Below, one piece after another: positions 1,264 through 49,168 of a stretch of DNA of 54,243 bases. The notes beneath the pieces are model-generated. The model ran no database searches, was not told the origin of the DNA, and saw only the letters and a list, made by a program, of their open reading frames with translations. The first letter of the stretch is position 1, and every line of letters starts with the position of its first letter. The DNA lies in contig JADGKB010000098.1 of NCBI GenBank assembly GCA_027604185.1, positions 1 through 54,243 of the forward strand. The letters run 5' to 3'. Origin of the DNA: Boothiomyces macroporosus. Lineage: Eukaryota > Chytridiomycota > Chytridiomycetes > Rhizophydiales > Terramycetaceae. Made by a program: the position numbers and the translations under genes.

Positions 1264-4200
1264 ATGTTGATTCCATACCTACTGGGACAACTATTCCTAT
1301 TGGCTGTATTGGCAGAGAGTATACCGTACATACCATATGGGTATTTGTTGCTAACAAATAGCTTAGTTCCAGGAAATTGTACAGTGGTAATCGATTGTGG
1401 TGAAATGTACTTTCCAAGACAAATCACAGTCTCTGAGGATGAATCCGTTGTAACTGGAATTGACTTGAATGGGTATCCCTTAATAGTCCAGCAGGGTGCC
1501 AATTATGTTCTATCACAGACATTAATGAAGAGAATGACGACTTGCACTTCAAACCAAATAGCTGCATTGGATTACCAAGGAAGAATATACTTTTTATTAA
1601 TGCAGCCATTCGAGTGGATATATTTGCAAACAAATATAACGGTAATAGATATCGACTGCGAATCAGAAAACATTTGGGTTATTGATGAACATAGAGACTT
1701 GAGAAAGTGGGAAAATAACAATTGGAATATTAAAGGTAGTGGGTTTGATTCTGTATTTGTTGGGAACGGTACAGTGTGGGCACTATCCTCTGGAATCCCT
1801 TTTACACTCAATCAAACAGACTCTAGCTGGACTAGAGTAAATGGATTAGACAATATCAAGGAAGTTGCAATAAGTTCAACAGCTGTTATTGCTAGAAACA
1901 TAATGGGAGAATTGTTTTATTACAAAGAAAGCTGGAAGAAGCTGGATGGTTATTGGACTGGGTTGGATGTGGGAGCAACAAACATGTTTGTAACTACTGC
2001 CAACGGCCATGTGTTTACACTATCTTTAGAATACGCGAGCACTCTTTCTGTTCCAAGTGACAATATTGACAATCAAAAGAATGGCTGGACTGATTTGCCT
2101 TTTAACTTCACGATTATATCAGTAGCTAAAGACCAAACCTTATTTTGCGGACTAGATCCATCTGGAGCAGCATTTTCTGTTGATTTACAAACGAATAAGA
2201 TAGAAAAGATGGGAGATATTGAACTGCTCGATATTGTATCTTGCAGCATCTATGCAAAATATAAATACTGGGCTGTAGACAAAAAAGGATTTGGATATTA
2301 TTGGGATCAAGGAGAATGGGTTTTGCAAAAGAACATTCAGAGCTTAAAACAAATGGATTGCGATCAAACAAATGTTGTCGCTTTAACTGTACTAGGAAGC
2401 ACATTTTCTTTTAGCTTTGAAACAGGAAACTGGTCTGAATTTGGTGAATATGGATTTGACAAGATTGTCGTGTCTGCTGGGACTTACTCTGGGTTGAGAA
2501 ATGGTATACTGTACAACTATGTTAATTCTAAATGGTATACAGACTACTATAATATCCTGGATTTCCAAAAAAGTGTTACAGGAACAGTGATAATTAGTGA
2601 TGACCATCAAATCTACCAATCCACCACCTCAACTTATCGAGATCAGCACTGGCAATTCACTCTTGGAAACTTGACTAGGGTTTCTATTGCAAGTGATACG
2701 ATATTTGGGGTAGACATTTATGGAAAAGTATGGAAGAAAAAAGTGTACCCTTCACTTGATGTCCAGATGCAACAGTATGGGTGGAAAAGGTTATCAACAA
2801 AAGAAGCTTACTTTACAGCGGTAGCAGTTTCAGCGGATGACTCCATTGTAATAGGTACAAATTATGGTGGATCTGCATTCTTGTATGACAAGACAAAAGA
2901 TGAATATGTATTATTGGGCAATCAAACATTTAAGCAAATTTCTGCTTGTGGAATTGGGGCACCTTTTATTGCAGCCGGTGTAGATTCCTTTGGAAACTTT
3001 TCTGTTTGGGCTTCAAACAAGTGGGAAACATTTGCAAAGAATATAAATCAGGTTGACTGCAATGAACGTGGAATTTGGGCTATAAATTCGGATGGAGCAG
3101 TAGTTCACTACGATTTTTTGGCTGAAAGCTGGATCACTTTACCAAACGAAACATATGCCAATGCATTTGAAATAGATATTCCGGTGCACTTTAGTTATGT
3201 CACAGCAGTCGGAAATGATATCTATGCCCTGGTCAGATATGAAGATACTCTAGAGCCGTCCGCAATAGTGTATTTTGATGACAAGCAATGGAAATATGTG
3301 TATTTTCCGTACGAACCTCCACTTGCGAGTAGTTACTTGAGCATTTCTTCAAAATTGGGTGTCACATCTGCTTCTTTCTACCCAAATTTGACACTGTTTA
3401 ATCGCACTACTCTTCCTGGACAGTACAATTATGCCAGTGTCTCTGATAACATTTTATACTCTGTCGATTTGACTGGTAATCTCTGGATTCAACCAATCAA
3501 CATTCCTGGTCCATTTCCAACTCCACAGTTTGACCCTAGTATTATCAAGTTGGTAAGGTTTCAAACCGATGATGGCTGTTTGAACGAGTGGGTACTTGGA
3601 GATTGCGGGAAGCCCAGCAAGATCAAAATCACACCAGCAACGGAACAATCCTACTATTCATTATTTACCATAGAGTACACATGGGATAATGTAACTGACA
3701 ACTAACAATAGCAATGTGCAGTAACAACAATTGTTGGAAACATTGATGTGTCGCCCTGTATGAATTTTCCAGATATGCTGCCATTGAAACCAAGTATGCT
3801 GTGGACAGTTATCGACTATCAAGGTTATGTGTTGTTGCAGAATTACGAGCACAATCTGTGTATCTTGGAGTACACTATGCGTCCTTGCATTCCAATTTTT
3901 AAAAGAACTGTGTTTTATAGAGACGCATTTGCTTCACTTCCTGCTACAAAGGATATTGTGGTAAAAGATTTCAAGTTCAAGAGCAATGGATTTACAGGAC
4001 AGGCACCTTTTTGCCAATGGATTGGCCCAGAGGAGCACCGTATACAGGTAGATGCCAGTTTCGAATATGAATGCTTATCCAAGTGTAATGAATACGCCAG
4101 AAATCCTAATGTAACCTGCACAGCATACAATTTTGATTTTAACTTACGAAAATGTTACTTTTATGGCGATTCAGTTCAATTGCTTTATCTTACTAGCAGC

Positions 4201-7183
4201 AAATTTAGCAATTGCGGGTAAACTTTGAAATAACCTAGATTTATTCTGAATATTATGGATTCGCTTGATAACATAGAAACTGCAACCTCGTACAGCCTTT
4301 TCTTGCTATCCGACTTTTCAGGAATGCTAAAAACAACAACAATTAATGATGTTACGATTGCAAATGCATGCCAAGTTCAAGGTGCACCATTCGCCAACTC
4401 TACTGGCTTAAATTGTGTTGACCAATGTAAAAGCGACCCCAAGTGCGCTTCATTTGATTTTTACGAGAATATCTGCTTCCTCTATGATCACCAACTTGGA
4501 GAAACATCCATAATCCGAGCAGCAGAAAATAGCACTCAATGTGGATTCGTCAATTCTAGAAATCTGGGATGTGAAGCAGTAAACAACATTACAGTTTGTA
4601 CAATGGACACGGAGCCTAAAATGTTGAGCTACAACTCTTATCTATTGGCTAGCAGAAATATTGTCAAGGACTTTCCACTGGTAGAAGGAAATTGTACATT
4701 TTTGGCCGTTGAACCTTATACATCCTTCAAGAATTCAACAGATTGCTCAAAATACTGTGTAGTTGATGATGACTGCACTAGTTTTCTATGGGATCCCAAC
4801 ACCACGACTTGCTCATTATTCCAAAATCAGTTGGAATTCAACAACGTTTATCCAACAGATTCAAAATCATGCGGATTTCTGCTTGCTCGTAATCCTGATT
4901 GTGCAGTGATTGATTCATCTATCGTATGTAAACGCTCTACAATCAGCTCCCCTTTGAATATACCAAAAGTATTGAATTATCAAAACAAGGTATTTGAACA
5001 GCAATTCTCCTTCAACTACCTGGCGAAATACTGTATGATTGCTGGAGAGAGCGACTGGCACACATTCAACACTACATACTATGATCTTTGTTTGAATCTT
5101 TGTGATAAAAATCCTGGATGTACAGCATTTTCCTACAACATGTATACTTACAGATGTGACCTTTTCAGTCTTCCCTTACAGTATCTTCAGATGTTGGAAT
5201 CAGCAAACACCTATTGTGGATTTTCAATTTTCAGGAATTCTGATTGTGCACTTGACAAAAACACTTTTTCTTGTCCTACGTTTACTTTGCCAACAAAGAT
5301 ATCAGTTAGTGCCAATCTTTACTTGGAATCACCATCGGAGTTGTACTCTGGAAGTTGCAATCTAATTGGTGTAGGATATAGACACCTCGAATACTTTTCA
5401 TATGAGCACTGTTCTCGATATTGCTCTGCAGATGATGACTGTTTGTCATTCGAATGGGATCCTTTGGATAAATGCGTATTTTTCAATTCATCCCTATCAT
5501 TATCTTCATTTTCCATTGATCCGGTGAAAAAATGCGGGTAACTTAAACTAACTTTGATTTATATACAAGAGGGCTCCAAACTGTTTCGTTGCTTCAGATT
5601 CCCTGATTTGCAACACGTAAAGCATTTTTAATCTAGATCCCCAAACAGATATTTGTCGTACAATGTTACTTTAAACGGCTTACCTTTAAATACTTTTCAA
5701 TTAGCCATTCAAGATGATACAGTTTATTTTAGCGGGTGTCGATATTATGCTGATTATTTGCTAAAGTTTTACTTTACAAAATGGGAAGAATGCCAATATC
5801 TCTGTGAATCAACAAAAGGCTGTTTATCATTTAGCTGGGCACCATACGGAAATTGCTGGTTGTTTCAAGATTCGTTTGAAATGTTGATTCCAGTAAACAC
5901 ACATGATGAATGGAAATGCGGGTAATTACTGTGTAACTTAGCTTTATTGCCACTAGGAACTCTGACCATTGTCAGTTTCAAGCAAGTTCGTTAAACTGCA
6001 CCACTCCGTAAGTATTAGTTGATATAGATTTTCTCCAACCAGGAATATAACGATTCAAATTAATGGGACAAAAACAACTGTTCAAGTAAACAATTCACAA
6101 ACTACTTTTGGTCCCAACACCCCACAACTGTTCAATTTTAATTCCAATAATTTTGAAAACTCGTCATTGGGAGTAGCTAATCTTGATTCTTCTATTAGCA
6201 CTAATCAAGAACCCCAGGACCTTTCTCCAACTTTAATCTCCACCAAACCCAAGCCAACAAGTTCACCAACAAAGCCAAATTTTGGCAATGCAGAAAACCA
6301 CCAAATCGTTTATATTATAGCTGGTACATGCTTTGCGATTATTATCGTTGTGTGTGCAATGTTTGCGATCAATGCAAGAAAAAAAGTCAACGGAATCGAG
6401 GATGATCCAGTATTTGTATTATACCCAGGATTGTCTATGGATACCACCTTTGATCATACAAAGAGTGGTAATTTAAAGTTTGCGTCGAGAAAAGCTGCAA
6501 TTGCGCCAACTAATCAAAGTATGATGCTTCAGTTTAATGAAATCAACAACAAACTTGGAATTATTCCAATAGACAGCTATGTGTGGAAAGGGGAAACGAT
6601 ATACATTTTTTCTGATATAGAAGGATTGCCAATATTTGAAGAGTTGGCCATACGATTTTTGTTTCCGTTGGGAACCTTTACAAGTGAGCTAGATGTCAAA
6701 GAACTTGGGATTAAAGTAGGTGATAGGATAGAAATAGCAAATTACATCTCGGCGGATTACTTTGTTACTAGTGATACTGAAAAGCCGCTTATTCAAAGAA
6801 TCTTTAACAAAAAGAAAAGGTACCCAATTTCACTAATTCCAACAACCAATTTCCCCAAACTGGTGTTCAACATCCTCCAAACCAGAGATGCAAGGAGCAA
6901 ACTGTTGGATAAAATAGTTGCTACATATCCGTCAAATGTTAGAGTCAATTATCTGGACACATGGACGAATTTGAATCCTGATGAATATACCAGGGATGGA
7001 ATTTGGAATTCGATTCTGGAAGACAAGAGTATTCTTATTCATGCTGATGCTGATAATACAGTGTTGATTACAGATTATTTGCAGCGTATCGGGGATAATA
7101 CCTGGACCTACTTTGATAAACATCTGATTACAAGACCTTTTGATGATACCACCATAAAAGAGTACACCCCATTCGAGAAATAA
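1264..7183 (+). CDS. Large type I membrane protein: tectonin-like propeller, six PAN/Apple modules, TM, cytosolic tail
   Basis: Six introns (3691-3711, 4218-4238, 5538-5556, 5617-5636, 5922-5941, 6008-6027) give one 1932-residue frame. It starts with a signal peptide (LLGQLFLLAVLAES), then about 780 residues of repeated Trp/Gly-rich blades with phrases like GVDIYGKVWKK and AVDKKGFGYYW, typical of tectonin or WD-like propellers. Six Cys-rich PAN/Apple modules follow (about 815-1560), each with a CxxxC pair, a C(T/L)SF(x)WD-like strand and a closing CGF...R. Next come a Ser/Thr/Pro-rich stalk, one membrane helix (about 1640-1665) and a 265-residue cytosolic region I do not recognise. PAN modules bind proteins or sugars, so a surface adhesin or receptor is the likely role (inference). 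Intron 5538-5556 ends in TG. Introns sit at the ends of modules 1, 5 and 6 at the same codon position. Confidence 0.82.
5538..5556 (+). other. Non-canonical GT-TG intron in the PAN receptor gene
   Basis: A 19-nt interval starting GTAACTTAAA and ending CTAACTTTG. Removing it gives CGFIYKRAPNC, matching the CGF...R closing motif of the other modules (CGFSIFRN, CGFLLARN, CGFIATRN). The nearest AG that keeps frame ends at 5571 (34 nt) and deletes that motif. Confidence 0.65.
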
Positions 7184-7188
7184 AGTAT

Positions 7189-7791: not shown

Positions 7792-9296
7792 CTAAAAAGG
7801 TCCAATTGATACATCTTTGTCAGAAAAACTCTTGCTGCAGTTCAAGGAATTCACCCCACAGTTTGGAATAGGATTTCTCCTTGTAGATGCAGTTGAAACC
7901 GCTGATCCAAGTGGAAACGTTGCTTGACAATTCGACCAATTGAAAAAGGTACACACTTGCTTTGAAATGGTATTTGGATCTGGATATGCTGCATATTGCG
8001 GTTGCGGTTGTTTTTGAATCGCCCAAATCATAATGCCACCTGCGTTCTGGGATGAAATGAAACCGAGCAAGTATTTCAATTCTTCAATCGTCAAACAGTG
8101 GCCCAAGTGACATGGAGTAGAAGGTTGGTCTGCTGGAAACCCCTCCATTGGAGGTTCAATCCCAACCAAAATTGGACCAGAAAAGTATTGTTTATAAGCC
8201 AGCAAGGCAGTAGTAGGATCAAAGAATCCAACGTTCACATTATTATTGTTTGGGTTGACAGCATATGTTCTTGTTGCGGGATTCCAATACGTATTTGCAT
8301 CATAGGACATTACATTCAGCCAATCTAGTTTGTTTCCTGACGCCTTCAACATTCCCAAGGACATGCCACCGTTCCACCATAAACCACCCCATCCTGGAGC
8401 CTAAAATTAGCTATTAGTTACCATGTGAACGTTATCGTAAATGCCTTCCCCATACGCACCATAACCATGCACTGCACTACTCAATAGGTACGGCTTTGGA
8501 AAAGCAGATCGAAATTGGTTAATTATATTAATGTATTGCGGATCAGCTCCACATGTTTGGGTAAGATTTGTTCCTGGTGGTACCCAGGAACCACCGCCAT
8601 TGGAAGGTTGGCAATTAGCTGCAGAGCTCATGGAAGATGGATATCCATTCGTTTCAAAATCTATATCTACACCGTCTAGTCCAAAGTCATCAACAAAATC
8701 CTTAAGGTTTTGCAAACTTTGGGAATATTGTGCTGGGCTGTATCTGGTATCTTTTGGATCAAACACTGCCCAACTTGTCTTAGAGGGTGAGATCCCACCA
8801 GCCTTGCAAGTAGAGTCGCCATCGACTATTGTCAAAATTAGTTACCTGAATAGCACCACCCACCAGCTGAAACTAGTACTCTTGTACCTCTTGACCGAAG
8901 AATTGCTATTCCATTCTTTAAATTCGCACTTGCAGATGGAAGGAAATCGAACCCAGTTTGAGATATATCCATCGAGCCTTTGGTATACTTGAAATTGGGG
9001 TTGACGAACGAGAGAATCACAATATTGTAATAAGTAGGCACTAGGCACAGATTGGAGGCAGTTGGGTCAGACCAGGATTCATAGTAGCCAACATACATTG
9101 CACCAGTTGGTCTAGCGTTTGGAGTTGGCGGGATTACCCCAAGCATAGGGCAAGATGAAGCAGTGACATTTGTGGAATTAATCCCGAGTTGTTTTGATTG
9201 ATCGATGGTTGCTGCATCAGTACCATAAATTAAATACACAGCTACAAGTAGGTGCCAAATAGTGAACGAGCCTGGAAACATTGTTGGTTGATTCAA
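7792..9296 (-). CDS. Secreted GH18 chitinase
   Basis: Two introns (8826-8845, 20 nt; 8401-8421, 21 nt) give 487 residues. The start at 9296 carries a hydrophobic leader (FTIWHLLVAVYLIYGTDAA). Signature GH18 elements are visible: the RVLVSAGGW strand, split just downstream by intron 1, and the catalytic DGVDIDFE motif near residue 200, which matches DxxDxDxE with the proton-donor Glu. Later come a VMSYDAN strand and an IMIWAIQ strand, as expected for the TIM barrel. It should hydrolyse chitin outside the cell or in the wall, for wall remodelling or digestion of chitinous prey or host. It is transcribed away from the GH45-like gene at 9667 across a 370-bp spacer. Confidence 0.9.
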
Positions 9297-9666: not shown

Positions 9667-10973
9667 ATGACTGCCTGCAAACATGTCTTTAATAGCGTTT
9701 CTTGCAAGTTCTTAAAACTTTCTAACATCAGTGCACAGACCAAGAAACACTTTGTGCTTTGTCTTACATGGATAACCTTGCTTTCGAATGGCAGTGTAAT
9801 GGCCGCAGCATTGACCAAGAATGAATTGAATCAGCATGACCCTATCCAAGGACATCAAAGCACCCTCAATATCTCAAACAATGCAGATAGCTGCGGGTAC
9901 CAGAATCAAGGAAAACTGCTCCAAGTAAAACCCAATGTTACTATATGTATGCCAAAGACCATTTGTACAGCTGAAACTTGTCCACCGGGATTAGGAAACT
10001 GTGTCAACAATCAGTGTGTATTTACTGGCGGGTACTTGGGAATTCAATCTGATCCAAATCCTTGGTCAACCTACTATTGCACTTTGGCAAAAGGAGGTAC
10101 TTTCTACTAAACAAAGACTGCGATGGAGTTTCCCAAGTTGAAAAGCCAGTTGTAACTGCTTCCAAAGTTGCCAAAATGATGGGACTTGCGCTATGCCCAG
10201 ATTCTCCTGATCCAAAGAAAAAGTGTGTTGGTATTGCTGCTTCTTCAGCAATGATTGTTGGTAACAGTCAAGAGGCCAGGTACATCAACGGAAATTCTGT
10301 AGGAAATGCATGGGGATTAGGAATGAGTGAAGCATCAAACATTTGCTACGAGCTGACTGGGCCTAGTGGTGCTCAAGTTGTTGTTGCTTTGACTGATAGG
10401 TACCATTTGTTTAATCAGATGTGGAGGATACTGCAAATGTAATGGTTCTGGAATTCAGGAGTGTGGGTAAGCTTCATCTTTAATCTGACCTTGTGTAAAT
10501 GCCATCAATTTGCCAATATCTAATGGGTTGAATCCTAATCTAGCACCAAACTGCCCTTGTGTTGGGTCTGCTGGTTCCTTGTTCAGTAGTTGCTGTGGAA
10601 ATAACTGCGGGGTTCCGATAGTCGCCGATTGTGACTGGTGCGCTTCCAATAATCACCGTATCACCGTACTAATTTAGCTCATTTTGATTTAGACTCAAAC
10701 GCGTGGAATACTGTTTGTTTTGGCAACACAGTTTCTGGCAGCTGTCAACTAGAATCAGTGAAGCCAGTTTCTTGTCCCTTGAATGTAAACTGGCCACCGA
10801 GTGCAACTGGTGGCTCAAATCCTCCATGTGCATCCAATTCCTTTCAATGTGGAGGTGTTTCACCAGATCCCAATAATCAACCATTGGTTCCAGGTAGTTC
10901 GAGTATTGACAAAGGTACCTCTTGTTGCTGTTTCTATGGCAAAAAACCTCTGGAAAACCATCAGTGTGCCTGA
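9667..10973 (+). CDS. Secreted GH45/expansin-like cysteine-rich protein
   Basis: Four introns (10097-10116, 10400-10418, 10467-10487, 10658-10677) give 408 residues. A hydrophobic stretch (HFVLCLTWITLLSNGSVMAA) is the likely signal; the start could also be the later ATG at 9802. A Cys-rich linker (about 70-125) precedes a double-psi barrel: STYYCTLAKGDC, CYELTGPSGAQVVVALTDRCGGYCKC, ECGPCVN and DWCASNNHPHFDLD. These fit the GH45 endoglucanase/expansin superfamily, where the Asp of the HFDL strand and an early Tyr/Asp shape the active site. The likely role is loosening or cutting beta-glucan polymers of algal or plant walls (inference). The third intron ends in TG; without that choice the conserved CVN segment is lost. 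Confidence 0.65.
10467..10487 (+). other. Second non-canonical GT-TG intron (GH45-like gene)
   Basis: A 21-nt interval beginning GTAAGCTTC and ending TTTAATCTG. Removing it joins ECG to PCVNAINLP in frame, with cysteines spaced as in the barrel family. No AG occurs near enough downstream to act as the 3' site without deleting this segment. The rest of the interval looks like the AG introns around it, with a TTAATC branch-like motif at the same distance. Confidence 0.65.
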
Positions 10974-11150: not shown

Positions 11151-13954
11151 TTATTCAATCAAATTGAAATAAATCTTGTCCATTTCATCCAAAGGCTTTC
11201 CATCAGTAACGACAACTTCACCAAATAGATTGGAAATTTTCGCCAAATCATTAGTCTCGTATAAATTGTCTCGATCAAGTACTAAATAGTGACCAACTGG
11301 CTCGATTGATTCACACAAGAATTTTGAAGGAAACGTAGCAGTAGTAATAATTTTGTGAAGCGTAGGGTTAGAGTTTTTGTAAGCATCAAAGTCTTTGGAG
11401 CTTTTGCCTATACTTAGCAACTTGATTATTGCAGGAGCAACATCTTGCGTGTCTGTAACCGAAATGAATCTGCCTGCAAGCTTGTTTTTTTGCAAGTATG
11501 CACTGGTTCCATTTCTGAATGGAGTAGGAGATCCGAATGCAATTGAAAAAGAATTCTGCTTCTTCAATATGGACTTTAAGTTTAGGCAATGCGCTATAGT
11601 CCCCCCAATACCTCTCCCACAAAAATAAACTCTAGAGATATCTGATGGAATTTCATCCCAAATACGACTATAAAGTTCAATTGCCTTACTATTGAATGCA
11701 CCAAGCAATCCAATCATTTCTTTCGACGACGCCTTCGGTTTGATTGCGTCAGTAAAAAAGTTGTGTAAAAAGGCAGGTTCATTTCGAGTGTCATTGATAG
11801 ACACATAGCAGCTGTCTTCTACAACAGCGACTTTGTATGGTAAATTCGTGTCGAGAATATCCATCGAAAACCGAGCCAGCTTGTTATACTCTGTATCTTT
11901 CAGCAACTTGGGAGAATAATTCACTGTAAAGTTAAATTCTGTTTCTTCCAATTTACATTCATACGTAGCGTTTGGTGTTTTGCAAGGTAAACAGTAAAAT
12001 GCAGGTGAGCACTTCTGGTGGGAATATTGATTGCAATGAGAGCAGTGTAATACAGCTTCGGAATCAAAGAGCACCGATTTGCAGCAATCAAACACTCTGG
12101 TTGTAGTGTAAACTGTTTGAACTTGCAAATCATGCTCCCAAAAGTGTGTTCCAACTGGAGCATTAGACCTAGCAATCAGCGCCAGTAAAAGATGTGCAAG
12201 TATTTCCTTGTGTTTGGAAACTAATTCAATGATATCTTTCCTTTGAACATGTTCTTGGATCTTTTCAATTGCTGCTAGTCCACGAATAACATACTGCTCA
12301 ATACTTTCTTCAAATGCTTTCAGATTTTCTACACGGAAGGTAGTCCATACTAATAGTTCTTGTAAAAACAAGTCATCCACTAGACCCAAAGCAAAGTATC
12401 TAGAAGATTCATCTGCATTGTCTGAGAATACTTCGTCATTCTTTATGATCAATTTAGACAGTTTCAAAACCTGCGTAAATCTGCCTTGTATTTCTGATAT
12501 TTCAGTCATTCGCCATCCGCATAAACGCGATAATTCCTTCTTATCGCTTTCCTCTTTTCCTTTTGCTAAAACTAAAGCCTTCACTTTTACTGCACTGTAA
12601 GACAGTAAATGCGAGCGGAAGTATTTCATCCATTCATCCAAATACCTATCGAAATCAAGCAAATCATAGGTTGGTTGATTTTTTGCTTTTTCAATTCGCG
12701 ATCTGAAAGCAAGGATAATTTCGGCGGATTCGTGCGACCACTTGTTGTTGATTGTGCCTACATCAGACTCTTCTGGGCTGAATCGGTTAAACAGATTCCA
12801 GGATCTTTCCATCTTTCGGAGATCAATTGGGACCTCTTTTAAAAGTCGTGCGTCCAGCAAGTTTTGAATACACTGGCCAAGCGAAACCTTTTGATCCCAG
12901 ATGGATAGCAGAAAATCAAAGTTATGCGGCTCAAGGATAACGTTCGGCAGCTGTTGAACTAGTATTGAATCAATTGTTTGCTGGACGTCTTTTACAATTC
13001 TAGACTTCCAGAGACTAATATATCTAAAGATTTCACCCGTATGGGGAATATCGATATCACCTTCAAAGCTAGTCAAGGCATCCAGTTTTTGAATAAACTG
13101 ACGACTCCATAATTCATAGTCGTGCGCAACAACATCAAAAGTTTCAGAGTGAAAATAAGGAGCCAGCAAAGGAACTACGGGAATTTGCTTTGTAACTTGA
13201 AAGTCAGTGTACCTATCAATAGTCCTTGGGGCTTTAATCGAGGCATGAGATACAACTGCTATAGTATTGTCTTGAGAAATGAAAGCCAAGTTTGCCAAAT
13301 CAATAAACCCTTGATCTCGTTTGGTTAATGCGCTTTTGACCAGGATAAACTTGTGCGGCCTGTTGGCAATAACATGCTGCATGATAAGGTATTGCAGCAA
13401 TTGCATTTGTCCACCACGGTTATCACCGAAACCGGGAAAGTCACACAAGATGAAATCTTGGACATAGTAATTGGGCAAGCTAGTCATAGAAGCCATACCG
13501 TCAGATACTTCACTTCCTTGAATAGGATCGGGCACGTCTAGTGAAAGATTCCCCATTGAATCTTCAAAAACCAATACTTTTCTGTTTGCCAAGATGTTCA
13601 ACAAAGTAGATTTTCCTATATTAAATGCGTCCTACCTGCTCCAGTGTAGCCAATCAAACCGAGCACGGTTTTTGATCCGCAACTTTGACAGCTGACTTGA
13701 TAGTCTTCTACAATTGTTTGGTAAAACACATGAAGAGGATCAAGTTCAGAATCTTGGGTACTGGCTTCAAACTCATGCTTCCATTTGTCTTGGTTGCAAA
13801 TAAAACATGGTTTGTTGCCAGGCGCAATCTTTGGAGGGACATACCGTTGAACAGGTACACAAGGTGCAGAAGCAGTTTGAGTTACCTTCAATCTCTTGCC
13901 AGAGCTAGAAGTAATTTTGACAGTGTTGCCGTCAGACTGAATAACCAAAGTCAT
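11151..13954 (-). CDS. P-loop GTPase with zinc-finger segment and C-terminal lipase-3-like domain lacking its serine
   Basis: One 20-nt intron (13616-13635) splits the P-loop glycine codon; splicing restores GYTGAGKSTLLN (residues about 102-113). The N-terminal 100 residues hold two CxxC pairs (CFIC, CQSC). A switch-II-like DFPGFGDNRGG follows (about 150-160). The middle is long and helical, then comes a Cys/His cluster (CCK, HCSHC, HQKC, CLPC) like a small zinc finger. The last 200 residues resemble class-3 lipases: an elbow VYFCGRGIGG, then AFGSPTPFRNG and RFISVTDTQDVAPAI. In active lipases the elbow reads GHSLGG, so the nucleophile Ser is replaced by Gly. The total is 927 residues. The start is the first in-frame ATG. 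Function is unknown; a GTP-controlled scaffold or membrane protein is conceivable. Confidence 0.75.
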
Positions 13955-16007: not shown

Positions 16008-17089
16008 CTATTTATTATATCGGCTTTCAGTCATTAAATACAAGGCTTCTTTCTTGTCATGCATTCCAAGTATGTGGTACATTTCAATCATTAGCAGGGT
16101 ACACACTTTATCAGTAGTCATCCCGTACAATTCTTCGCAGATTTCTGCTTGGTAATTCGCAGAATGGAAATAAATCATTGCTCGTTTGATATCTAGCGGT
16201 GAGTATGGATGTTCTGAAAACAGCAGTTGGGCTTGGGGAACTGACAAGTTTTTGTATGGCCCAAAATCTAGAGATACTTCACTACTACTACACACTTTAT
16301 ACTTGTTTTGCTGTAGCCATAGGGAATATACTTTCATGATTTGCCTGTATCCTCTAGATGGCTCAATTGCGGGTATAGATTTGACAAGAGTGGATTTATA
16401 CGGTTCAACGTTCACTGTCTTTAATTCGTTTAGCAATATTTGAATCTCATTATACAGTTTTAGTTCGCTGAGATTAGTAAAAGAAACCTGTATTTGGTAA
16501 TTAAAATGTCATAGATTTTCCTTGGATTGGAGTGTTTAATTTTGCTGAACAGTTTGATTCCCTCCTCCATTTGATTAGTTTGAAGCAGATACCACAGGTT
16601 AATTTCTTGCTCCAGTGTTTCTGATGATGGTTTATAGATACAATGTGCTTTGTCAAACTGCCCTGTCTTTACGTAGTATCGCATAATCAGCGCATAGTAC
16701 CTGGGATCATGGATATTACTTTGTGAGACTGAAATTGCTTCTTGGATTTCACTGTGACTGGGAACCATATCCAGTTTCCCAACAGTGCTGTTTACCCACA
16801 GCTTGCTTTTAATGCTCCGATTAAGCATTTCCTTTGTAAATAGATATTTCGCTATTTGCTGCTCTATTTTGTCCAGGGGAGACTGCTGGATAAGCTCTCT
16901 GCATTTGCTGATTGGTAAGCCTTTCAAAAGGGATTTAATTTGCTTTAGCGATGCTTTTGGCGGTGCGATGCGGTATAATTGATCAAACTGCTTAAATGTA
17001 ATCAGGTGATTTATGTTTATGCTGGTTGAATTTGTTATGGTCTGTAGAAATCTTTTCATGAAAAAAAATATCAGCTTAAATTTTGACAA
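16008..17089 (-). CDS. Pentatricopeptide-repeat-like protein, probably mitochondrial
   Basis: One 20-nt intron (16468-16487) joins two exons into 353 residues. Paired-helix repeats typical of PPR proteins are visible, for example YYALIMRYYVKTGQFDKAHC and IYDILITKYSELKLYNEI. The second possible start (17059, MKRFLQTITNSTSINI) gives a basic, Ser/Thr-rich amphipathic leader suited to mitochondrial import, and I think it the better start. PPR proteins bind organelle RNA; the target is unknown. It is divergent from the F-box/LRR gene at 17291. Confidence 0.6.
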
Positions 17090-36896: not shown

Positions 36897-38187
36897 TCAC
36901 TTGTAGAAATGCTGCATGATTGCATCCACTTTATCAATACATATATTGTGAACTGGATGGATCTTTTTCAGCATATTAGTTTCTTTGGACAGGATATCGG
37001 AACTTTCCTCAATTACTAATTCCCCTTGTACATATTTAAATTGGTTTTGACATATTGATAGACCGCTTAGACAGTAGCACGTGTGGTAATAGTCTGGAGA
37101 CCTGATAATTAACTAGAAGTACTTGCCCGGTTTATCTCGTAGCCCGCCATTTTCAGATTGGCAACATACAAGAGTATATTCTTGTAATCGAACTTGGTCA
37201 GTGTAAATTACCTCTATCAAATATAGTAGTTGCTAAAGTTAGTTACAAGCTACCTTTTGTTTTGCTCAGGTGTAATTCTAAAAGAGCACAAGCACCACCT
37301 TGCCAAAAAGAGTAGCATCCATCCACCAACTTGTTTACACGTCCTTGAAACCCACCTTCACACTGCATCTGTCTTGCTAATGTCCAGTCAAGTATAGCAT
37401 CTACATCAAGCAAATGCACTTTATCCAAAAAGGTTAAAGCAGCCAAACCGCAATAAGTATATCCACCATGTGCTTCAACGTTTGGAAAGGATCCTAATCC
37501 ACCTTCATAAGTCTGACATTTTGCTATAAATTCTGGTACTCCTTCTATTAATTCCGGAGTCATCATATTTAACAACACGGCAACATTAATCGCACAGTAT
37601 GATCCCCTGATATCTACTTCTCCATCCTCGTGCATTTTAAATGACCCATCAGGTTGTTTAACACGCATCAAAAATGAATACAAGGCCTTTCTATCTACTG
37701 ATTCGTAAGCGTCAGTAGTTCCAATTATTGCGATTGCATTCACTGCAGCATAGGTTGTAGCGAGATGAGATATTTGTCCTCTTCCTCCTGAATATCCACC
37801 ATCTACATTCTGACAGCTGCTCAAAGTCTCTAATGCTCTGAGTTAGAAATCTCAACCTCTTTTTCAAATCAAGATCAACTGGGCTGGAGAGTAAATCCAA
37901 CGAGTGAAATATCCAGTAAATCAACCAGGGTTTCGAAGCATCCTGAATTAAATAAATTTACTAGAGCTACAAACCATTTCGACAATCCTTCTTCCAGCAC
38001 ATTATTTAAATAACGAATGTGTTTCTTTCTCTTTAGTTTACTGGTTAGCGTGAATATACTAATTTGGATCCTTGAAATAATGTTCCAGAATAGAGTCCTC
38101 TACTTCGCTCTGGATTTCAGAAGTGTAGGTTGGCCATCCATCGTCTGGAATTTTCATAGCAGCGAGATTTGTACCTGAGAGTTCCAT
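36897..38187 (-). CDS. Protein farnesyltransferase beta subunit
   Basis: Six introns of 19-21 nt (38041-38059, 37943-37961, 37838-37856, 37233-37253, 37193-37211, 37102-37122) give 390 residues, close to the 390-440 typical of the family. Landmarks in order: HIRYLNNVLEEGLSKWFVALDASKPWLIYW; CQNVDGGYSGGRGQISHLATTYAAVNA; EAHGGYTYCGLAALTF; the zinc ligands Asp and Cys in KLVDGCYSFW; and GGLRDKPGKSPDYYHTCYCLSGLS with the third zinc ligand His. It transfers farnesyl to CaaX proteins such as Ras, as a dimer with the alpha subunit. The farnesyl- rather than geranylgeranyl-type motifs (DGCYSFW with CQxxDGG) favour FTase. It is divergent from DRE2. Confidence 0.93.
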
Positions 38188-38459: not shown

Positions 38460-39432
38460 ATGTCGGAAATACTACTTGTTGGAAACCCTTCAATTAACCA
38501 GGCAGAATTAGAGCAGACCCACAAAGAGCTAGCCAGCAAGGCTAAAGTCGCTTTTGAACAACTTGATCGAATCACTAGCAGTAAATATTGTTTAATTCTA
38601 GTTTCCCTCCCTGTTGGTAAATACAATGAAATATTATCAGGACAGCTTCGACCAGTTGCTTACTACCACTCTCTACAAGCATTATCGCAATTGGCAAAAG
38701 CACTTGGGCCATCAGGAAAATTAACTCTTTCAGAGCCATGTTTCATCAACACTGCTGATTTGATGGAATTCAAAGATAGAAATTCCTTGATTCCAATTCA
38801 TACCGAAAGATCATTGAACTCTGATTTGTTAATGAACGGATTCGTCAACGTCAAGATGGAAACTGCTGCAATTGAATCTGAAACATTAAAACAGTACTTG
38901 TCAATTTGGAATGCTGATGACCTATTTTCATCCTTGGATGGTAAATTAGTGCTAGTCAATGTTACCGCTGAAAAGCCAGCTTATCAAGTTGGAGCTGGAG
39001 CAAAATTATCCTTTGGAAAAAAGAAAGTAAAGGAAGAGCCAAAGAAACCTGCAGTATGGACCGTATCAGCAAACGATGAAGATGAAGAATTGGAAAACGA
39101 AGACGAATTGTTGGATGAAGAAGATTTAATCGTCCCACCAACACAAGCACCTGGTGATTGCTCTACCAGAAAGAAAGCATGTAAAGACTGTACCTGTGGA
39201 AGAGCGGAAGAAGAAGAACAAGAAGCTTTGCAAATGGCAGCAAAAATCACTGTTGTAAAGAAGAAGCCAGTTACTTCTTCTTGTGGTTCGGTAAATATCT
39301 CTTTTAATTTAGTGTTACTTGGGAGATGCTTTTAGATGCAGTACTTGTCCATACCTTGGAATGCCAGCCTTCAAACCAGGTGAAAAGGTTGTATTAGGTG
39401 GAAACATGTTGAAGGACGATATTGAACTATAA
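38460..39432 (+). CDS. DRE2: Anamorsin/Dre2, cytosolic Fe-S assembly factor
   Basis: A 22-nt intron (39291-39312) gives 316 residues. The N-terminal two thirds is the methyltransferase-like domain ([29 protein letters not shown]). An acidic linker leads to the two cluster motifs: [13 protein letters not shown] (CxnCxxCxC), and [15 protein letters not shown] (CxxCx7CxxC), followed by the hallmark [14 protein letters not shown]. The intron lies between the first two cysteines of the second motif, so without splicing the motif is lost. Dre2 passes electrons from Tah18/Ndor1 to the cytosolic iron-sulfur assembly pathway. The family identity is secure. Confidence 0.95.
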
Positions 39433-41301: not shown

Positions 41302-42394
41302 TCAAAGGATGGAGGAATGGTACCAACCCAATCCGTACATGCCTTCAGTCCAAACCCACCCTGAGACATTCGCCTCGTAAGCATTGTGGATTTCTTTGTA
41401 TTCCACTTTGATTATCCGCTTGCAAAATACTTGACCATTCATAAGCTTGATTGCCGTCTTTACACTTTCGGCACTTTCATATTGTATAAACGAACTCTTT
41501 AGCCCTTTTGATTCCCCCAAGAATTGGCATTCAACAATCTTTCCAAATTCTGAAAACTTTTGTTGGAGCACTTCTTTGGTAACGGACAAGTCCAGTTTCC
41601 CAACAAATATCGAGTAAGGGTCTCGCTGTCTGTCTGCCTTTTCCAAATTGTTTGACCATTCGACTACCCAATCGTACTTTACTTTGCAAGCCTGGAGCGC
41701 CAACATCTACTTTAACATGGATTACAGCATCTTCCCGGTAGCAGTACTTTACAAACACGCTTCCCTTACTATCACCAGTTGCGTAATCTCGCAATACTTG
41801 CAAGTCTAGATTAAAACGGTTGACCTTCAATTTCACCAAACTGCTCAAACACCGAACGAAGCTGTTCTTCGTTCATATCTTTGATTCTTGACGCATAAAT
41901 GGTGCGATTAACTTTGGCTTTTTCAATTCGGATTTTTCTTCCATGCAGAACCGTGCCAGCAGCTTCAACAAAAGCCCTGTCTGCATCTTGGTGGTTTTTG
42001 AATTGCACGAATGAAAAGGGTCGTTGTTTCAAGTCTCTAAGGACTTTGATGTTTAGCAATTCTCCGTATTTCTTGAAGATTGAATAAACGCTGGCACTTA
42101 ATTGTTCATCTGTCTTGTTTATACAAAGACTAGTTTAATGATTGGATACCTTGCAACAAATAGACAAGCGGTTGGGAGAGCTTTTTCCACTTTGTTGCCG
42201 TAATACACGAGTGCCGTAGATGAGGGTGCATTAATTGGTTGCGCACCATCCGTATCCAGTTGGTCAAACGCATCAACCAAATCTTCCTCTTCAATTTTGA
42301 CACGTCTCCTTAATAATGGCGGATAATTTCTACGATCAGTCATAGATAATCGTTTCATATCAAGTGGTGAGTCCCACGATTTCGATCGAAACAT
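41302..42394 (-). CDS. RNA-binding protein with three RRM domains
   Basis: Introns of 20, 19 and 19 nt (42130-42149, 41806-41824, 41692-41710) give 344 residues. RRM1 (about 85-165) has RNP2 CLFVASL and an RNP1-like FSFVQFKN; RRM2 has TIYASRI and SVFVKYC; RRM3 has SIFVGKL and KSSFIQYES. The first intron cuts inside RNP2 of RRM1. A Lys/Arg-rich N-terminus precedes the domains. The serial, closely spaced RRMs recall fungal Mip6/Pes4- or Nrd1-like mRNA-binding proteins, but I cannot pick one. The role is probably in mRNA processing or translation control. Confidence 0.78.
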
Positions 42395-42665: not shown

Positions 42666-44650
42666 ATGGCTTCATACTATAACTTCAAGAAGGTCCAAGT
42701 AGTACCAAATGGAACGGAATTCATTGACATTGTTCTTTCTAAAATCAACAGAAAAACTCCAACAGTCATCCACCCAAATTACCAAATCACTCGTATCCGT
42801 TCATTCTATATGAGAAAAGTTAAATTCGCACAGGATTGTTTTGATGAAAAGCTGGGGCAAATATTATCTGATTTCCCTAAACTTGATGTAAATACTGGTT
42901 TTATTATAGGAAATCCATCCATTTTATGCTGACTTGATGAACGTTTTATATGACAAGGATCATTACAAATTGGCTTTGGCTCAAATCAACACCGCCAAGC
43001 ATCTGATTGATAATGTAGCAAAGGATTATGCTCGATTGCTGAAGTTTGGTGACTCTTTGTTTAGATGCAAGCAGCTCAAGAAAGCTGCTTTGGGTAGAAT
43101 GGCTACCATTATGAAGAGACAAAAGGACAGTTTGGCATATCTTGAACAAGTCAGACAGCATTTGGCTCGTTTGCCTTCTATTGACCCTAACACTAGAACT
43201 TTGATTGTTTGCGGTTATCCAAACGTAGGGAAATCTTCATTCATGAACAAAGTCACCAGAGCCGATGTTGAAGTACAGCCATATGCGTTCACTACGAAAT
43301 CTCTCTTTGTCGGGCATATGGACTACAAGTATTTGAGATGGCAAGTAATTGACACTCCTGGTATTTTAGACCATCCCCTGGAACAAAGAAACACTATCGA
43401 AATGCAATCTGTGACTGCTCTTGCGCATTTAAGAGCTTGTGTAATGTTCTTTATTGATGTTTCTGAACAATGTGGGTACAGCATCAAAGAACAAGTAGGG
43501 CTCTACAATTCTATTAAACCATTATTTGCCAACAAGCCAGTCATGGTTGTGGTCAACAAAATTGATATCAAGAAACCAGAAGATTTAGATCCTGAACAAC
43601 AAGAACTCTTGAACTCTATTACAAACGATGAAGAAGTTACTCTTGCACTTACCAGTTGTTATACTGACGAGGGTGTGATGGATGTTAGAAACTTGGCATG
43701 TGATAAATTATTAGCTTCAAGAGTTGAACAGAAACTCAAGGGTACCAAAATTCAATCAGTCATCAACAAGTTGCACTTGGCTCAACCGGTTGCTCGCGAT
43801 GACAAAGAGAGACCTGCTTTCATTCCTCCTGCAGCACTCAATAAGATTAAATATGATCCTAAAGATCCAAACAGACCAAAGCTCGCTAAAGATATCGAAG
43901 AAGAGAATGGTGGTGCTGGTGTATATAACGTTGATTTGAAACATAACTATATGCTTGCTAAAGATGAATGGAAATACGATGTCATTCCAGAAATCATGGA
44001 CGGTAAAAACATTGCCGATTTCATTGATCCTGATATTGAAGCCAAATTGGAAGCTTTGGAATTGGAAGAAGAACGATTGATTGCTGAAGGTTTCTATAAC
44101 GAAGATGATGAAATGGAAGATGAAGAAGTTGAAGCAATTAATGAAGCTGCTGCAAAATTAAAAGACAAGAAGAGCATCTTGGTTCAACAGCATCGTCTAA
44201 AGAAAACAAAGAACGGCAAAGGCTTGACATACAAGGACAAGGCTAGAGTAAGTTTTAATTGACAATAGTCCTCTAGATTAGACGACTTTGAGCAAGTATT
44301 AGAATCCAAAGGAAAGGAAGCCTCACTCCACAACCTCCGTGATAAATCCCAAGCTCGTGTCGGTAAAAAGAGATCTAGATCTGAAGTATCTGTTTCTAAA
44401 GATCGCTCCAAGTCGCTTGCTGGAAGAGATGATGTCCCAAGAGACAGATCAGTCATGGGCTTGCGCAATGTCAAGGTAACTATCAAGTTAATAATAGCAA
44501 AAAATTGAAGCCGATAAACTCAAAAACAACTACCAAAAGTTGCCTAACCTTATGGCCAAGAGAGGTGAATCTGATAGAGCGATCCAAACAAAGATGCCAA
44601 AGCACTTGTTTGCTGGTAAGAGAAAGATGGGAAGTGCCAACCATCGTTAA
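42666..44650 (+). CDS. NOG1: Nucleolar GTP-binding protein NOG1
   Basis: Introns of 22, 21 and 22 nt (42888-42909, 44248-44268, 44476-44497) give 639 residues, matching NOG1 length. The N-terminus ([20 protein letters not shown]...RKTPTVIHP) is characteristic. After splicing [20 protein letters not shown] is restored. GTPase motifs: [10 protein letters not shown] (G1), DTPG (G3), NKID (G4). The C-terminus has the typical basic segment. NOG1 is a 60S ribosome assembly factor in the nucleolus. The first exon ends inside the helical N-terminal bundle. Codon use is strongly biased, in line with high expression. Confidence 0.97.
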
Positions 44651-44972: not shown

Positions 44973-46357
44973 ATGAATGAGAAAATCCAGAAACTTTATG
45001 GATGGATGAAGGAGCAGGGAATCAAGAGCAAGATTACAGTCAAGGAATCGTACGGGTTGGGGTTGTTTGCCAATGCAAAGAAGGGCGAAACCGTGTTGTC
45101 TGTCCCCAAAAACTTGATCATAAACAGAACCAATTCGTTGAAATTTTTCGAACAGAGTCCATTGAAGTTTGAGAATTTCCCATTTTTACTCGCACCAAAC
45201 AGTCCAGAGATTCAACGGTTCGCAATACTACTCTACCTCACTCATTTGATTTACAACCCAACACCTTATTCTGCGCTATTACCCCGGGAAATCAAATCTC
45301 CGCTTGGATGGGATACTCAATCTGTTGAATTCCAGCTTTTAGCCTCAACTGGATTGGATTTAGCGATAAAGGGAAAGAAAGCCGTTTTACAGGAGGAATA
45401 CAATGTCTTGGAATTCCGAATGGGAGAAGAAATTTATACATTGGTTGAATACTTGTATTTGTCAAGATCAATGTCGCTGGTTGAAAATGAAGAAGATAAA
45501 AAGAAGCAAGAAGATTGGATTGGAATTATCCCAGTGCTAGATTTTTGCAATCACTCATTCACGCCAAATGCTAACTGGGAAATTAAAAAAGACACTGTTG
45601 ATTTAATTTTGCTTGAAGATGTGGATGGAGAGGTTTTCATTAATTACGGACCAAAACCAAATAACGAACTGCTTTTCATTCATGGTAATTGAAAACTTAG
45701 ATAGGGTTCATTCTAGAAGATAATGAATGTAAATTATCTTCCTACGCTCCGTTGGTAGAGTATCCAGATGACGAAGTTACCATTTGGGAAAAAGGAAGTA
45801 TTATGACAGAACGGGGTTGGGGTACAAGACTACAAATTGGTCATTATGATCCATCGCATCAGGATAATTTATTGCCGGATGTTCCAGTCGAAATACAAGT
45901 TTTACTAAGTGGAATACTCGATATGCGCAGTCTGCAGATTTTGAGTTTGTGTGCACTTCGAAAAGAAGATGGACTACACAAACGCGGTGACAAGATATAC
46001 TTTAAAGACAAAGAAGAAAACTTTAAAGGAAGGCCAGTGCCTTATGAAAAAACGAAATTGATCCGATTTATAAATGGGTTTTTCATTCACTTTTTGGAAG
46101 AATTGGATCAGGAACTTGAAGATAGTATTGAACAAACTCCAAACGTAAAAGCAGTACTTTACTTGCGATCGCAACTGGTTGAATTGTTGAACTTTAATGT
46201 ACTTATTTTGCACGAAATGTTTATCAAGGAAGATAATAGCGATGAAGAAGGAACCAGCATAAATCCAGAGGAAAAAGTAGATGCTGGCGATAAGGATAAA
46301 CTAGACCTTGAACGACTAGTTGAAGCGCTTGATTTGAAGGCAACTGAAACCGATTAA
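44973..46357 (+). CDS. SET-domain protein methyltransferase (Rubisco-LSMT/SETD6 type)
   Basis: A 20-nt intron (45685-45704) gives 454 residues. The SET core is split by a long insert, as in LSMT-like enzymes: [27 protein letters not shown] at the start, [15 protein letters not shown] for cofactor and catalysis, then [17 protein letters not shown], which the intron interrupts. The C-terminal 200 residues are the helical substrate-binding domain; the last 60 are acidic. It transfers methyl groups from AdoMet to lysines of a non-histone protein, perhaps ribosomal or elongation factors as in fungal relatives; the substrate is unknown. Confidence 0.88.
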
Positions 46358-46470: not shown

Positions 46471-47363
46471 ATGAAATTCTCAAAATATTTTTTGCTCTGT
46501 AGAAGGTTAATGTCCAAGACAACTAAACGTAAGGCAGAACAAGATCCCATTTCAACAACATTTCCCACAGAATTCCATTTCCCTCCTGAACCAAACTTGA
46601 AATTAGTTTCATGGAACGTTGCCGGATTGAATGCTTCCATCAAGAAAGGATTCTATTCATATGTAAAAGCTGAATCACCAGATATCCTTTGTATTCAAGA
46701 AACCAAGACTAACTCGGATTTCAAGTACGATCTACCCAAATACAAAATTTATCAGACTCATTCGACTGCAAAGAAAGGTTATAGTGGTGTCTGTATGATG
46801 ACTAAAACTGAACCGCTTTCTGTAAAGTATGGGATTGGAGATATGGATGATGAAGGCAGGTATATTACGTTAGAGTTTAAAAAGTACTATGTTGTTGGCG
46901 CATACGTTCCAAACGCGGGACAAAAACTTGAACGACTCCAAAGAAAGATTGAGCATTATCAAGTACTGAAAGAATATCTATCTAAATTGCCCAAACCGGT
47001 GGTATTTATGGGTGATCTGAATGTAGCACACAAGGAAGTGGATTTGGCTAGACCAAAGAATAATCACAAGACTGCCGGGTTTACTAAAGAAGAGCGCGAA
47101 GAGTTTGGGAAACTGTTGGATCTTGGATTTGTGGATACTTTTCGATTAAAACGGCCAGATGAGTGTGACAGGTACTTTTGGTTAACATTAGATACACATA
47201 CTATTCGTATCGATTCAGTTGTAGGATCAAGAACATTGGTTGGAGAATCGACTATTTCCTGGTCAAGGATATGCAGGATTTAGTTATTGATTCAGATATT
47301 AGATCAGATTGCTATGGCGCAAGTGATCACTGCCCGATTATAATGACGCTCAAAAAGGATTAA
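46471..47363 (+). CDS. AP endonuclease of the APE1/exonuclease III family
   Basis: A 20-nt intron (47172-47191) gives 290 residues from 46471, or 277 from the next ATG (MSKTTKRKAEQ), a nuclear-type basic start. The earlier start adds a hydrophobic/basic leader that could target mitochondria. Conserved motifs: LVSWNVAGLNA (Asn), DILCIQETK (catalytic Glu), GDLNVAHKEVDLA (Asp, Asn), YTYYSYR and WRIDYFLV after the splice, and SDHCPI (Asp-His). It cuts DNA at abasic sites in base excision repair. All catalytic residues are present, so it should be active. Confidence 0.95.
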
Positions 47364-47390: not shown

Positions 47391-49168
47391 TTAATCTTTT
47401 AAATTGGATGGGTAATGGAATGCTTCAATAGGAACAAAGGATTCCTTGATTGTACGAGGAGAGACCCATCTCAACAAGTTCAAGCTAGAACCAGCCTTGT
47501 CGTTAGTACCACTTCCTCTGGCACCTCCAAATGGTTGTTGGCCAACTACTGCACCAGTGGATTTGTCGTTGATATACATGTTGCCAGCAGCATTACGGAG
47601 ATGGTTAGACATTTCGATGATGGCTTCTCTATCTTGAGCAAAGATACCACAAGTCAATGCATATTCAGAAGTCTTTTCGGCAAGTTTCAATGTTTCAACG
47701 AGTTCGTCATTTGGATAAGCAAAAATGGTAAGGACAGGTCCAAACAACTCATTAACCATTGTTGGAGAATGAGGATCTTTGGTAATAAGAGCAGTTGGCT
47801 CAACGTAATAACCCACTGAATCATTGCAGTTGCCTCCAGCTAAAATACTAGTGGATTCGTTTTCACCAGACTTGACTGCATCCAAGTAACCTTTGATCTT
47901 TTCATATGATTGTTTGTGGATAACAGCTGTCGCAAAGTTTGTAAAGTCTGGTCAATAATTATTTACCTTCAACAGGTCCCATCTTGATCTTTGCCATTTC
48001 TGCTTTCAATTCTTGAGTGAATGCTGGCAACATGGATTCTGGTACATAAACTCTGGAGGTAGCACTGCATTTCTGGCCATTGTATTCAAAAGCCCCACGG
48101 ATGGTTTGTAAAACTGCGTGCTTGACATCTGCACTTTCGTGAATGAAATGCATATTCTTTCCTTGAATTAACTATAAATACCTCCAGTTTCACCAACAAT
48201 GCGAGGATATGATTTGTAAATATTAATGTTTTCACCAATCTTTTTCCACAACATCTTGAAAACACTAGTGGATCCAGTGAAATGGAATCCAGCAAAGTCA
48301 GGATGATTGAAAGTCTCATTGGTGATTACTTCTGGGTTGCCAGGAAGGAATTGAATGACACCATCTGGCAGTCCAGCTTCCTTGAGAATTTCAAGAATCA
48401 AAAAGTTGCTGTAGATTGAAGAGTTGGATGGCTTCCACAATACAACGTTGCCCATCAAGGCAGGAGCAGCAACCAGGTTACCACCAATGGCTGTAAAGTT
48501 GAATGGTGAATAAGCGACTACAAACCCTTCCAAAGCTCTGTATTCAACTCTGTTCCACATCATTGGAGAATTTTCAGTTGGCTGATCCCTGTAGATTTCT
48601 TGGGCAAATTTACAATTAAATCGAAGGAAATCTGCCAATTCTGCTGCTGCATCAATTTCAGCTTGCCATACATTCTTTCCCTGTCCAAGCATAGTAGCAG
48701 CCATCACTCTATATCTGTACTTGTGAGTTAATAGATCAGCAGCTTTCAAAAATATAGCTGCACGATCGTTGAAAGGCATGGCTTCCCAGGCTGGTTTAGC
48801 TTCCAATGCTTTGGCAATTGCCTACATTAAAAATAATTACATCCTTTACATTTTGAGCGGTAGCATTGTGATATTTGCATAGCTTCAAATGATGTTCGGT
48901 TGGAACGGGTTGTTCGCTAATGTCACCAGTTTCAATCATCTGCCCACTAACAACAATTGGGACTTCATATGGCCGGTTTTTAGTGATTGACTCTTTCATT
49001 AGGTCCACAGCTTTCTGCAACTCAGCTCTTTCGGTGGATCCTGGACCATAGTTTTTCTGGTGAGTAAATGCTTACCATAGGTTCATTTTTGATTTCCGGC
49101 AAGTTGAATGTTCCTAATTGCGGTGTGATTGAAATGCTTCTTGTTCTTGCTCTGATTGCTCTCAACAT
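47391..49168 (-). CDS. Delta-1-pyrroline-5-carboxylate dehydrogenase, mitochondrial
   Basis: Four introns (49057-49075, 48822-48840, 48162-48181, 47948-47966) give 566 residues, the usual length. An Arg/Ser-rich leader (MLRAIRARTRSISITPQLG) is a mitochondrial presequence. Motifs: FHFTGSTSVFK (NAD pocket), GETGGKNMHFIH with the general-base Glu, FEYNGQKCSATSRVYVP with the nucleophilic Cys, and NELFGPVLT with PFGGARGSGTNDKAG near the end. It oxidises P5C (glutamate semialdehyde) to glutamate in proline breakdown. The third intron lies inside the GETGGK motif. The upstream ATG at 49208 is out of frame. Confidence 0.95.

Follow-up and report, generated by a model that had tools for sequence, protein, structure and literature searches.

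Genes of the chytrid fungus Boothiomyces macroporosus are interrupted by numerous stretches of about 20 nucleotides (nt) that, judged from genomic DNA and predicted proteins, are very probably genuine U2-type spliceosomal introns, nearly all of them at or near the minimum length usable by a largely ordinary spliceosome. Members of the Terramycetaceae (Rhizophydiales, Chytridiomycota), to which this species belongs, are free-living saprotrophs. The window analysed here is the whole of contig JADGKB010000098.1 (54,243 nt) of GenBank assembly GCA_027604185.1, which totals 15.2 Mb in 216 contigs. An initial reading of this contig from its letters (hereafter the sequence-only reading) had proposed a near-uniform and widespread set of spliceosomal introns, and for this fungus the proposal was borne out by a motif-free gene finder, a trained gene finder, small nuclear RNAs (snRNAs) and paralogues. 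The sample consisted of the window and twenty 10-kb stretches taken from 17 further contigs, amounting to 254 kb on 18 contigs, or 1.7% of the genome.

Uniformity of length emerged from the motif-free finder, a codon model trained on long open frames that could skip GT...AG stretches of 8-120 nt at a flat cost and was blind to branch sites, splice motifs and preferred lengths. Skips of 18-22 nt accounted for 109 of the 248 GT-AG skips, with a mode at 20 nt (0 of 18 nt, 22 of 19 nt, 48 of 20 nt, 29 of 21 nt and 10 of 22 nt), versus 8-18 among 209-253 skips for ten control dinucleotide pairs, and no other GT-AG length bin within 8-120 nt rose above the highest control. Most of these introns begin with GTA and carry TAAY or TGAY a few bases before the AG, though the finder requested neither. 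They have the hallmarks of U2-type introns, GT...AG ends and, ahead of the 3' site, a branch motif with an adenosine. A second finder, trained on the motif-free introns, rewarded the motif and permitted 15-30 nt. Its raw output of 331 introns in 154 genes was reduced, by removing genes scoring below 8, to 123 genes, 104 of which contain a total of 309 introns. Among these, 288 measure 19-22 nt (75 of the 309 being 21 nt long), introns of 18 nt are rare (2/309), a few of 23-24 nt occur, and the density is 1.8 introns per kb of coding sequence. The narrow range near 15-22 nt that defines ultra-short introns was thereby found across the 254 kb, with at least one exception of 46 nt. Projected from the sampled 1.7% of the genome, and not counted, the total would be roughly 18,000 introns genome-wide.

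Within the span 1264-49168 of the window, the trained finder placed 44 introns in 22 genes, 42 of them of 18-22 nt, together with one of 24 and one of 25 nt (Table 1). The sequence-only reading had listed 49 introns in 22 genes, every one of 18-22 nt; its number of genes and the strong uniformity it described were retained, while its intron count and its strict length limits were not. Strict uniformity was abandoned once the 46-nt intron had been found outside the window, at the ISY1 locus, and lengths of 23-24 nt are also met occasionally.

Removal of the predicted introns restores intact proteins. The NOG1 protein obtained by splicing matches the deposited B. macroporosus protein, in which all three introns have been removed, at every one of 639 residues (100% identity). 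The species was identified from this protein, a search for 5.8S rRNA having found nothing. Batrachochytrium NOG1 shows no gap at any of the three junctions; in the Globomyces model the residues ahead of junction 1 are absent, and the Spizellomyces sequence has a gap of two residues at junction 2. Farnesyltransferase beta, joined across six introns and a 21-nt micro-exon, aligns with the solved structure 1n94_B over residues 11-389 (391.8 bits), and P5CDH, joined across four introns, with the solved structure 3v9j_A over residues 25-560 (569.6 bits), both over almost their full length. Around junctions one and four, gaps are seen among the farnesyltransferase homologues. Of the eight window genes checked against Pfam, most have a full or almost full domain match, the GH18 match covering positions 2-192 of 317. 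The motifs that had been named as restored over junctions, in the GTPase P-loop, the CHY-RING protein, DRE2 and P5CDH, were all recovered (Table 1). The deposited farnesyltransferase beta (HK103_007674) has 216 of 390 amino acids (aa) and is missing residues 29-107 and all those after about 292, apparently because tiny introns were overlooked. The models of JEL0838 (342 aa) and Terramyces (329 aa) are likewise disrupted at some of these introns, and those of Globomyces and Batrachochytrium are near full length. Residues of the micro-exon at 37212-37232 are skipped in the JEL0838 gene model. Judged from the deposited protein models of these relatives, tiny introns may be a trait common to the Terramycetaceae, and public gene models in this family can break where such introns are missed, as in one of the two window proteins compared.

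Paralogues offered independent evidence for excision, and exonic look-alikes and stop codons further support for genuine introns. Among 20 paralogue pairs in the sampled DNA, 15 share at least one intron at the same nucleotide, one of these pairs being identical. The tandem pair of the window (19777-21327 and 21457-22868) contributes three shared positions. With one pair more than 99% identical omitted, there are 29 shared-intron pairs at 10 positions, differing in length in 18 cases and by a non-multiple of three in 17, and the encoded proteins remain aligned across these length changes. Exon flanks are 66% identical versus 30% for intron interiors, a comparison that shows these presumed introns to evolve like spacers. 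Taking the lower quartile of the called introns as motif threshold, only seven look-alikes of 19-22 nt were left in exons (antisense control, 11) versus 216 removed. When retained in their true frame, 7 of the 75 introns of 21 nt would be free of stops, versus 64 of 150 when the two remaining frames are read; for introns of 19, 20 and 22 nt the stop-free number is 91 of 213. For strong-motif 21-mers, the worst case, in which all four unremoved ones are added, gives 11/67 versus 55/153 (P = 0.004).

Intron anatomy was derived from introns with a unique YTRAY motif, which left out 43 of 117 motif-free and 94 of 301 trained introns. In the motif-free introns so defined, the branch adenosine is nucleotide 14 or 15 in 69 of 74 and is followed by 5-6 nt in 64 of 74. 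Branch sites resembling CTAAC or CTAAT are usual in fungi. The 3' site is the first AG past the branch site in 286 of 294 introns of the trained set, and at position +5 T (0.42) prevails over G (0.21), although the 5' end of U1 is standard. Once outliers are removed (2/74 and 11/207), the two legs are uncorrelated (-0.14 for 72 motif-free and -0.07 for 196 trained introns; permutation P 0.15 and 0.17), so that total length seems to arise by adding two legs, each under its own constraint. A ruler acting on total length was considered and rejected, since the apparent negative correlation of the legs (-0.57, -0.62) was accompanied by outlying branch calls and shrank to -0.07 after trimming.

The first leg comprises the 13-14 nt from the 5' splice site to the branch adenosine of YTAAY or YTGAY, and the second the 5-6 nt from this adenosine to the first downstream AG; two legs under separate constraint would yield 19-22 nt without a distinct ruler for the total. 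For the typical intron, the earlier remark holds true that the 5' site and the branch point leave hardly any room between them. The 46-nt ISY1 intron (L041 1761-1806), whose removal gives exactly the deposited JEL0838 residues, has a perfect GTAAGT start, a CTAAT and 6 nt after the branch adenosine. Because it keeps the short 3' leg and lengthens the 5' leg only, the machinery would set a floor and not a ceiling, and the scarcity of longer introns would then result from evolutionary shrinkage. These introns would be removed by the spliceosome, their legs possibly sitting at the physical minimum, and retained copies may be policed by translation-coupled decay.

The splicing machinery was searched for U1, U2 and U6 snRNAs and for six proteins (SF1, U2AF65, SLU7, PRP18, ISY1 and CWC25). 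Two diverged U2 genes (L010 and L011; 142.2 and 135.4 bits) both contain the branch-binding GUAGUA, U6 (62.2 bits) has an intact ACAGAG, and U1 (68.8 bits, just below the gathering score of 69.5) has a canonical 5' end. All six proteins were found, unlike the reduced spliceosome of mikrocytids, U2AF65 with tandem RRMs and its C-terminal domain and CWC25 with an intact N-terminal stretch that retains MGGGDLNLKKSWHP; tiny introns of the same kind are present in the models of their genes, 15-30 nt being the permitted range. In yeast, SLU7 and PRP18 are less needed at short branch-to-3' distances. Their loss, predicted from the 5-6 nt found here, was ruled out, both being present. The search for snRNAs and branch-site proteins suggested by the sequence-only reading has thus been answered for U1, U2, U6, SF1 and U2AF65, with canonical snRNA motifs. 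Its assertion that the spliceosome must be unusual found mostly no support, given these motifs, the presence of the tested proteins and the accommodation of a 46-nt intron in ISY1; the one oddity encountered is an ISY1 apparently without the near-universal MARN.

The ISY1 gene (L041 1225-2104; G000:C39, about 29868-30747) encodes a protein that starts with MAPKTLAQKQE, and has no MARN, in both the B. macroporosus model and the deposited JEL0838 protein. Globomyces starts with MANNQKEKQKS and Gorgonomyces with MPPKASQLL. MARN opens seven of the other nine aligned proteins, the Geranomyces model starting inside the motif and Ciona having QARS. A pattern search upstream in the ISY1 locus found no MARN-like start. 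Two first introns are possible near the start, one of 49 nt implied by the deposited JEL0838 model and one of 22 nt that also keeps the frame open and is preferred here. Among the 120 ISY1 matches listed, 57 lack MARN by pattern, and in 49 of the 57 the sequence starts within the motif, at M[LF].[RK][FW]; the raw count was set aside, since the 49 look like gene models with missing first exons. The apparently divergent ISY1 N-terminus is best taken as a lead, the start of the model being uncertain.

Several other explanations of the gaps were weighed. Taken singly, frame breaks caused by sequencing or assembly indels or by pseudogene lesions would look the same, yet such errors would not produce GT and AG ends together with a branch motif at 19-22 nt, no such peak is seen with control dinucleotide pairs, NOG1, farnesyltransferase beta and P5CDH are intact after splicing, and paralogues have gaps at the same nucleotide; this origin is extremely improbable. 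Stop reassignment, programmed frameshifting or translational bypassing, with the stretches staying in the mRNA, would fit 21-nt gaps with in-frame stops. It is nonetheless very improbable: most gaps are not multiples of three, a single gene, that of U2AF65, has all three of TAA, TAG and TGA, lengths vary by 1-3 nt at a single position between paralogues, and the Batrachochytrium NOG1 has no insertion at any of the three junctions. That real introns form a mixture, many longer ones being missed and uniformity overstated, has more in its favour, namely the 46-nt ISY1 intron that gives the exact JEL0838 protein, the further one of 49 nt implied by the deposited model, a length-agnostic motif run that put 168 of 386 gaps outside 19-22 nt, and the blindness of the trained finder beyond 30 nt. 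Against this stand the absence of any longer bin above the highest control in the motif-free run and a strong-motif search up to 150 nt, which returned 189 introns, 163 of them at 19-22 nt. The 22 of at least 31 nt lie near the 16, 17 and 8 obtained in three controls with displaced branch motifs, with no clear excess, so that longer introns seem to make up no more than a few per cent and an extensive mixture is unlikely.

A set of uniformly tiny, spliceosomal introns thus stays the favoured interpretation, and several points weigh against it. The trained-finder statistics are partly circular because this finder rewards the motif and is limited to 15-30 nt, and it errs, having missed the 46-nt ISY1 intron and called a false 22-nt intron in its place. 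The motif-free set agrees with it but is smaller (74 informative introns of 117), and only 14 of the 45 window introns were called by both finders, 31 being absent from the motif-free set. At least three window introns lie in weak gene models and several in low-scoring genes. Five of the 20 paralogue pairs share no intron, the 29 pairs with shared introns, drawn from few families, are not independent of one another, and the deficit of stop-free 21-mers may partly reflect reluctance of the finder to remove them. A different objection concerns novelty: the depositors' annotation may already handle such introns, the trait being unremarkable to them. This has an appreciable, if minor, chance of being so, as the deposited B. 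macroporosus NOG1 equals the spliced model and three such introns are therefore annotated; the shortened farnesyltransferase beta models of B. macroporosus, JEL0838 and Terramyces speak against it, and the PubMed Central subset searched yielded no paper dealing with nuclear introns in Boothiomyces or Terramyces. The same subset, which leaves subscription papers outside the search, held no report of ultra-short introns in any fungus, and with this coverage priority cannot be claimed.

Uniform ultra-short introns are described in the chlorarachniophyte nucleomorph (18-21 nt, more than 800 introns), heterotrichs (15-16 nt) and mikrocytids (16-17 nt) (PMC10245619). The B. macroporosus set is close to nucleomorph introns in length, with nearly the same narrow range, but lies in a 15.2-Mb fungal genome that has kept the six tested splicing proteins, whereas the nucleomorph, a relic algal nucleus, has a reduced genome. 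In the parasitic mikrocytids 17-19 splicing proteins have been identified, and M. mackini has 224 introns (PMC10245619); these organisms share numerous, uniform introns of conserved sequence with B. macroporosus, in which coding sequence holds about 1.8 introns per kb. In Stentor, the branch adenosine is nearly fixed at the 10th nucleotide of 15-nt introns, U2 and U6 motifs are canonical, the CWC25 N-terminus is altered and that of ISY1 is divergent (PMC9505925). Uniform length, a near-fixed branch adenosine, and canonical U2 and U6 recur in B. macroporosus, whose ISY1 N-terminus is apparently divergent too and which in contrast has 4-5 nt more before the branch adenosine, a clear YTAAY and an intact CWC25 N-terminus. 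Paramecium introns are about 25 nt long, and those divisible by three are rich in in-frame stops (PMC5014332), the same direction as in the 21-nt introns here; Paramecium is however a ciliate with longer introns, and the underrepresentation of lengths divisible by three in ciliates is not evident for 21 nt in B. macroporosus. Introns of other fungi are likewise GT-AG, and in the consulted part of a survey covering 644 fungal genomes the Cryptococcus mean of 63 nt is described as relatively short, with no mention of any length close to 20 nt (PMC8476143).

What determines how short an intron can be is an open question, and the organisms in which it has been posed so far are ciliates, parasites and a relic nucleus, in some cases with much reduced splicing machinery. 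A chytrid that keeps the tested splicing factors separates tiny introns from a reduced spliceosome and adds a comparison inside fungi; it also suggests that a change in CWC25 is not required for tiny introns, while one in ISY1 may be. A bolder scenario, which we put forward as speculation with the balance tilted well against it, is that a free-living lineage (the Terramycetaceae and perhaps more Rhizophydiales) reached the minimum intron by independent convergence, its spliceosome staying complete apart from a change in one branching factor. In that factor, ISY1, the N-terminal sequence, usually MARN and extending towards the active-site intron, would have given way to another one, as in Stentor, and thereby have freed space for a lariat loop of 14 nt; mis-splicing would be policed by translation, leaving a Paramecium-like shortage of stop-free introns divisible by three. 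If true, ISY1 would become a testable determinant of the minimal distance from 5' site to branch point.

Table 1. Predicted introns in the window, with the coordinates of their genes (a slash marks the junction within a motif)
Length (nt)	Gene	Intron position	Strand	Remark
21	tectonin/PAN protein, 1264-5541	1341..1361	+	motif alone, as it has no in-frame stop
21	1264-5541	3691..3711	+	in-frame stops; motif-free finder too
21	1264-5541	4218..4238	+	in-frame stops; motif-free finder too
24	5910-7183	5933..5956	+	earlier AG, possible alternative end
20	5910-7183	6008..6027	+	
21	GH18 chitinase-like, 7792-9281	8401..8421	-	
20	GH18 chitinase-like	8826..8845	-	
20	9799-10442	10097..10116	+	
20	GTPase-like, 11151-13954	13616..13635	-	splits P-loop GYTGA/GKST
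20	16008-16768	16468..16487	-	low-scoring model
21	19066-19635	19163..19183	+	low-scoring model
19	PAN-like tandem paralogue 1, 19777-21327	19970..19988	+	same position as 21653-21672, other length
21	PAN-like paralogue 1	20098..20118	+	same position as 21782-21800, other length
20	PAN-like paralogue 1	20560..20579	+	same position as 22242-22261
20	PAN-like paralogue 2, 21457-22868	21653..21672	+	
19	PAN-like paralogue 2	21782..21800	+	
20	PAN-like paralogue 2	22242..22261	+	
25	23517-23796	23561..23585	-	candidate in weak gene model, doubtful
19	24044-24806	24202..24220	-	candidate in weak gene model, doubtful
19	27944-28952	28677..28695	+	
18	29104-29352	29226..29243	-	
20	29395-29990	29525..29544	-	candidate in weak gene model, doubtful
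21	CHY-RING, 35161-36366	35494..35514	-	splits RING FM/PCGHC
21	CHY-RING	35858..35878	-	
19	farnesyltransferase beta, 36897-38187	38041..38059	-	intron 1
19	farnesyltransferase beta	37943..37961	-	intron 2
19	farnesyltransferase beta	37838..37856	-	intron 3
21	farnesyltransferase beta	37233..37253	-	intron 4, then micro-exon
19	farnesyltransferase beta	37193..37211	-	intron 5
21	farnesyltransferase beta	37102..37122	-	intron 6
21	DRE2 (anamorsin), 38460-39432	38581..38601	+	
22	DRE2	39291..39312	+	splits CGS/CYLG of Fe-S motif
20	three-RRM, 41302-42394	42130..42149	-	
19	three-RRM	41806..41824	-	
19	three-RRM	41707..41725	-	
22	NOG1, 42666-44650	42888..42909	+	intron 1; spliced protein equals deposited protein
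21	NOG1	44248..44268	+	intron 2; as above
22	NOG1	44476..44497	+	intron 3; as above
20	SET-domain, 44973-46357	45685..45704	+	
20	AP-endonuclease-like, 46510-47363	47172..47191	+	
19	P5CDH, 47391-49168	49057..49075	-	intron 1
19	P5CDH	48822..48840	-	intron 2
20	P5CDH	48162..48181	-	intron 3; splits GETG/GK
19	P5CDH	47948..47966	-	intron 4

Two further features of the assembly were noted. A 3.1-kb stretch is identical on two contigs (L043/L044, on C49 and C100), and repeated match pairs occurred for C1 and C173, for C20 and C31, for C36 and for C69, which together point to duplicated segments or to haplotypes that the assembly left unmerged. The end of the window (50675-54243) is low in GC (31.6% at 51001-54000) and contains an HNH endonuclease-like gene as well as a long N/T-rich protein (51876-53639) with no Pfam match at 0.001; it looks fibre-like, foreign or mobile.

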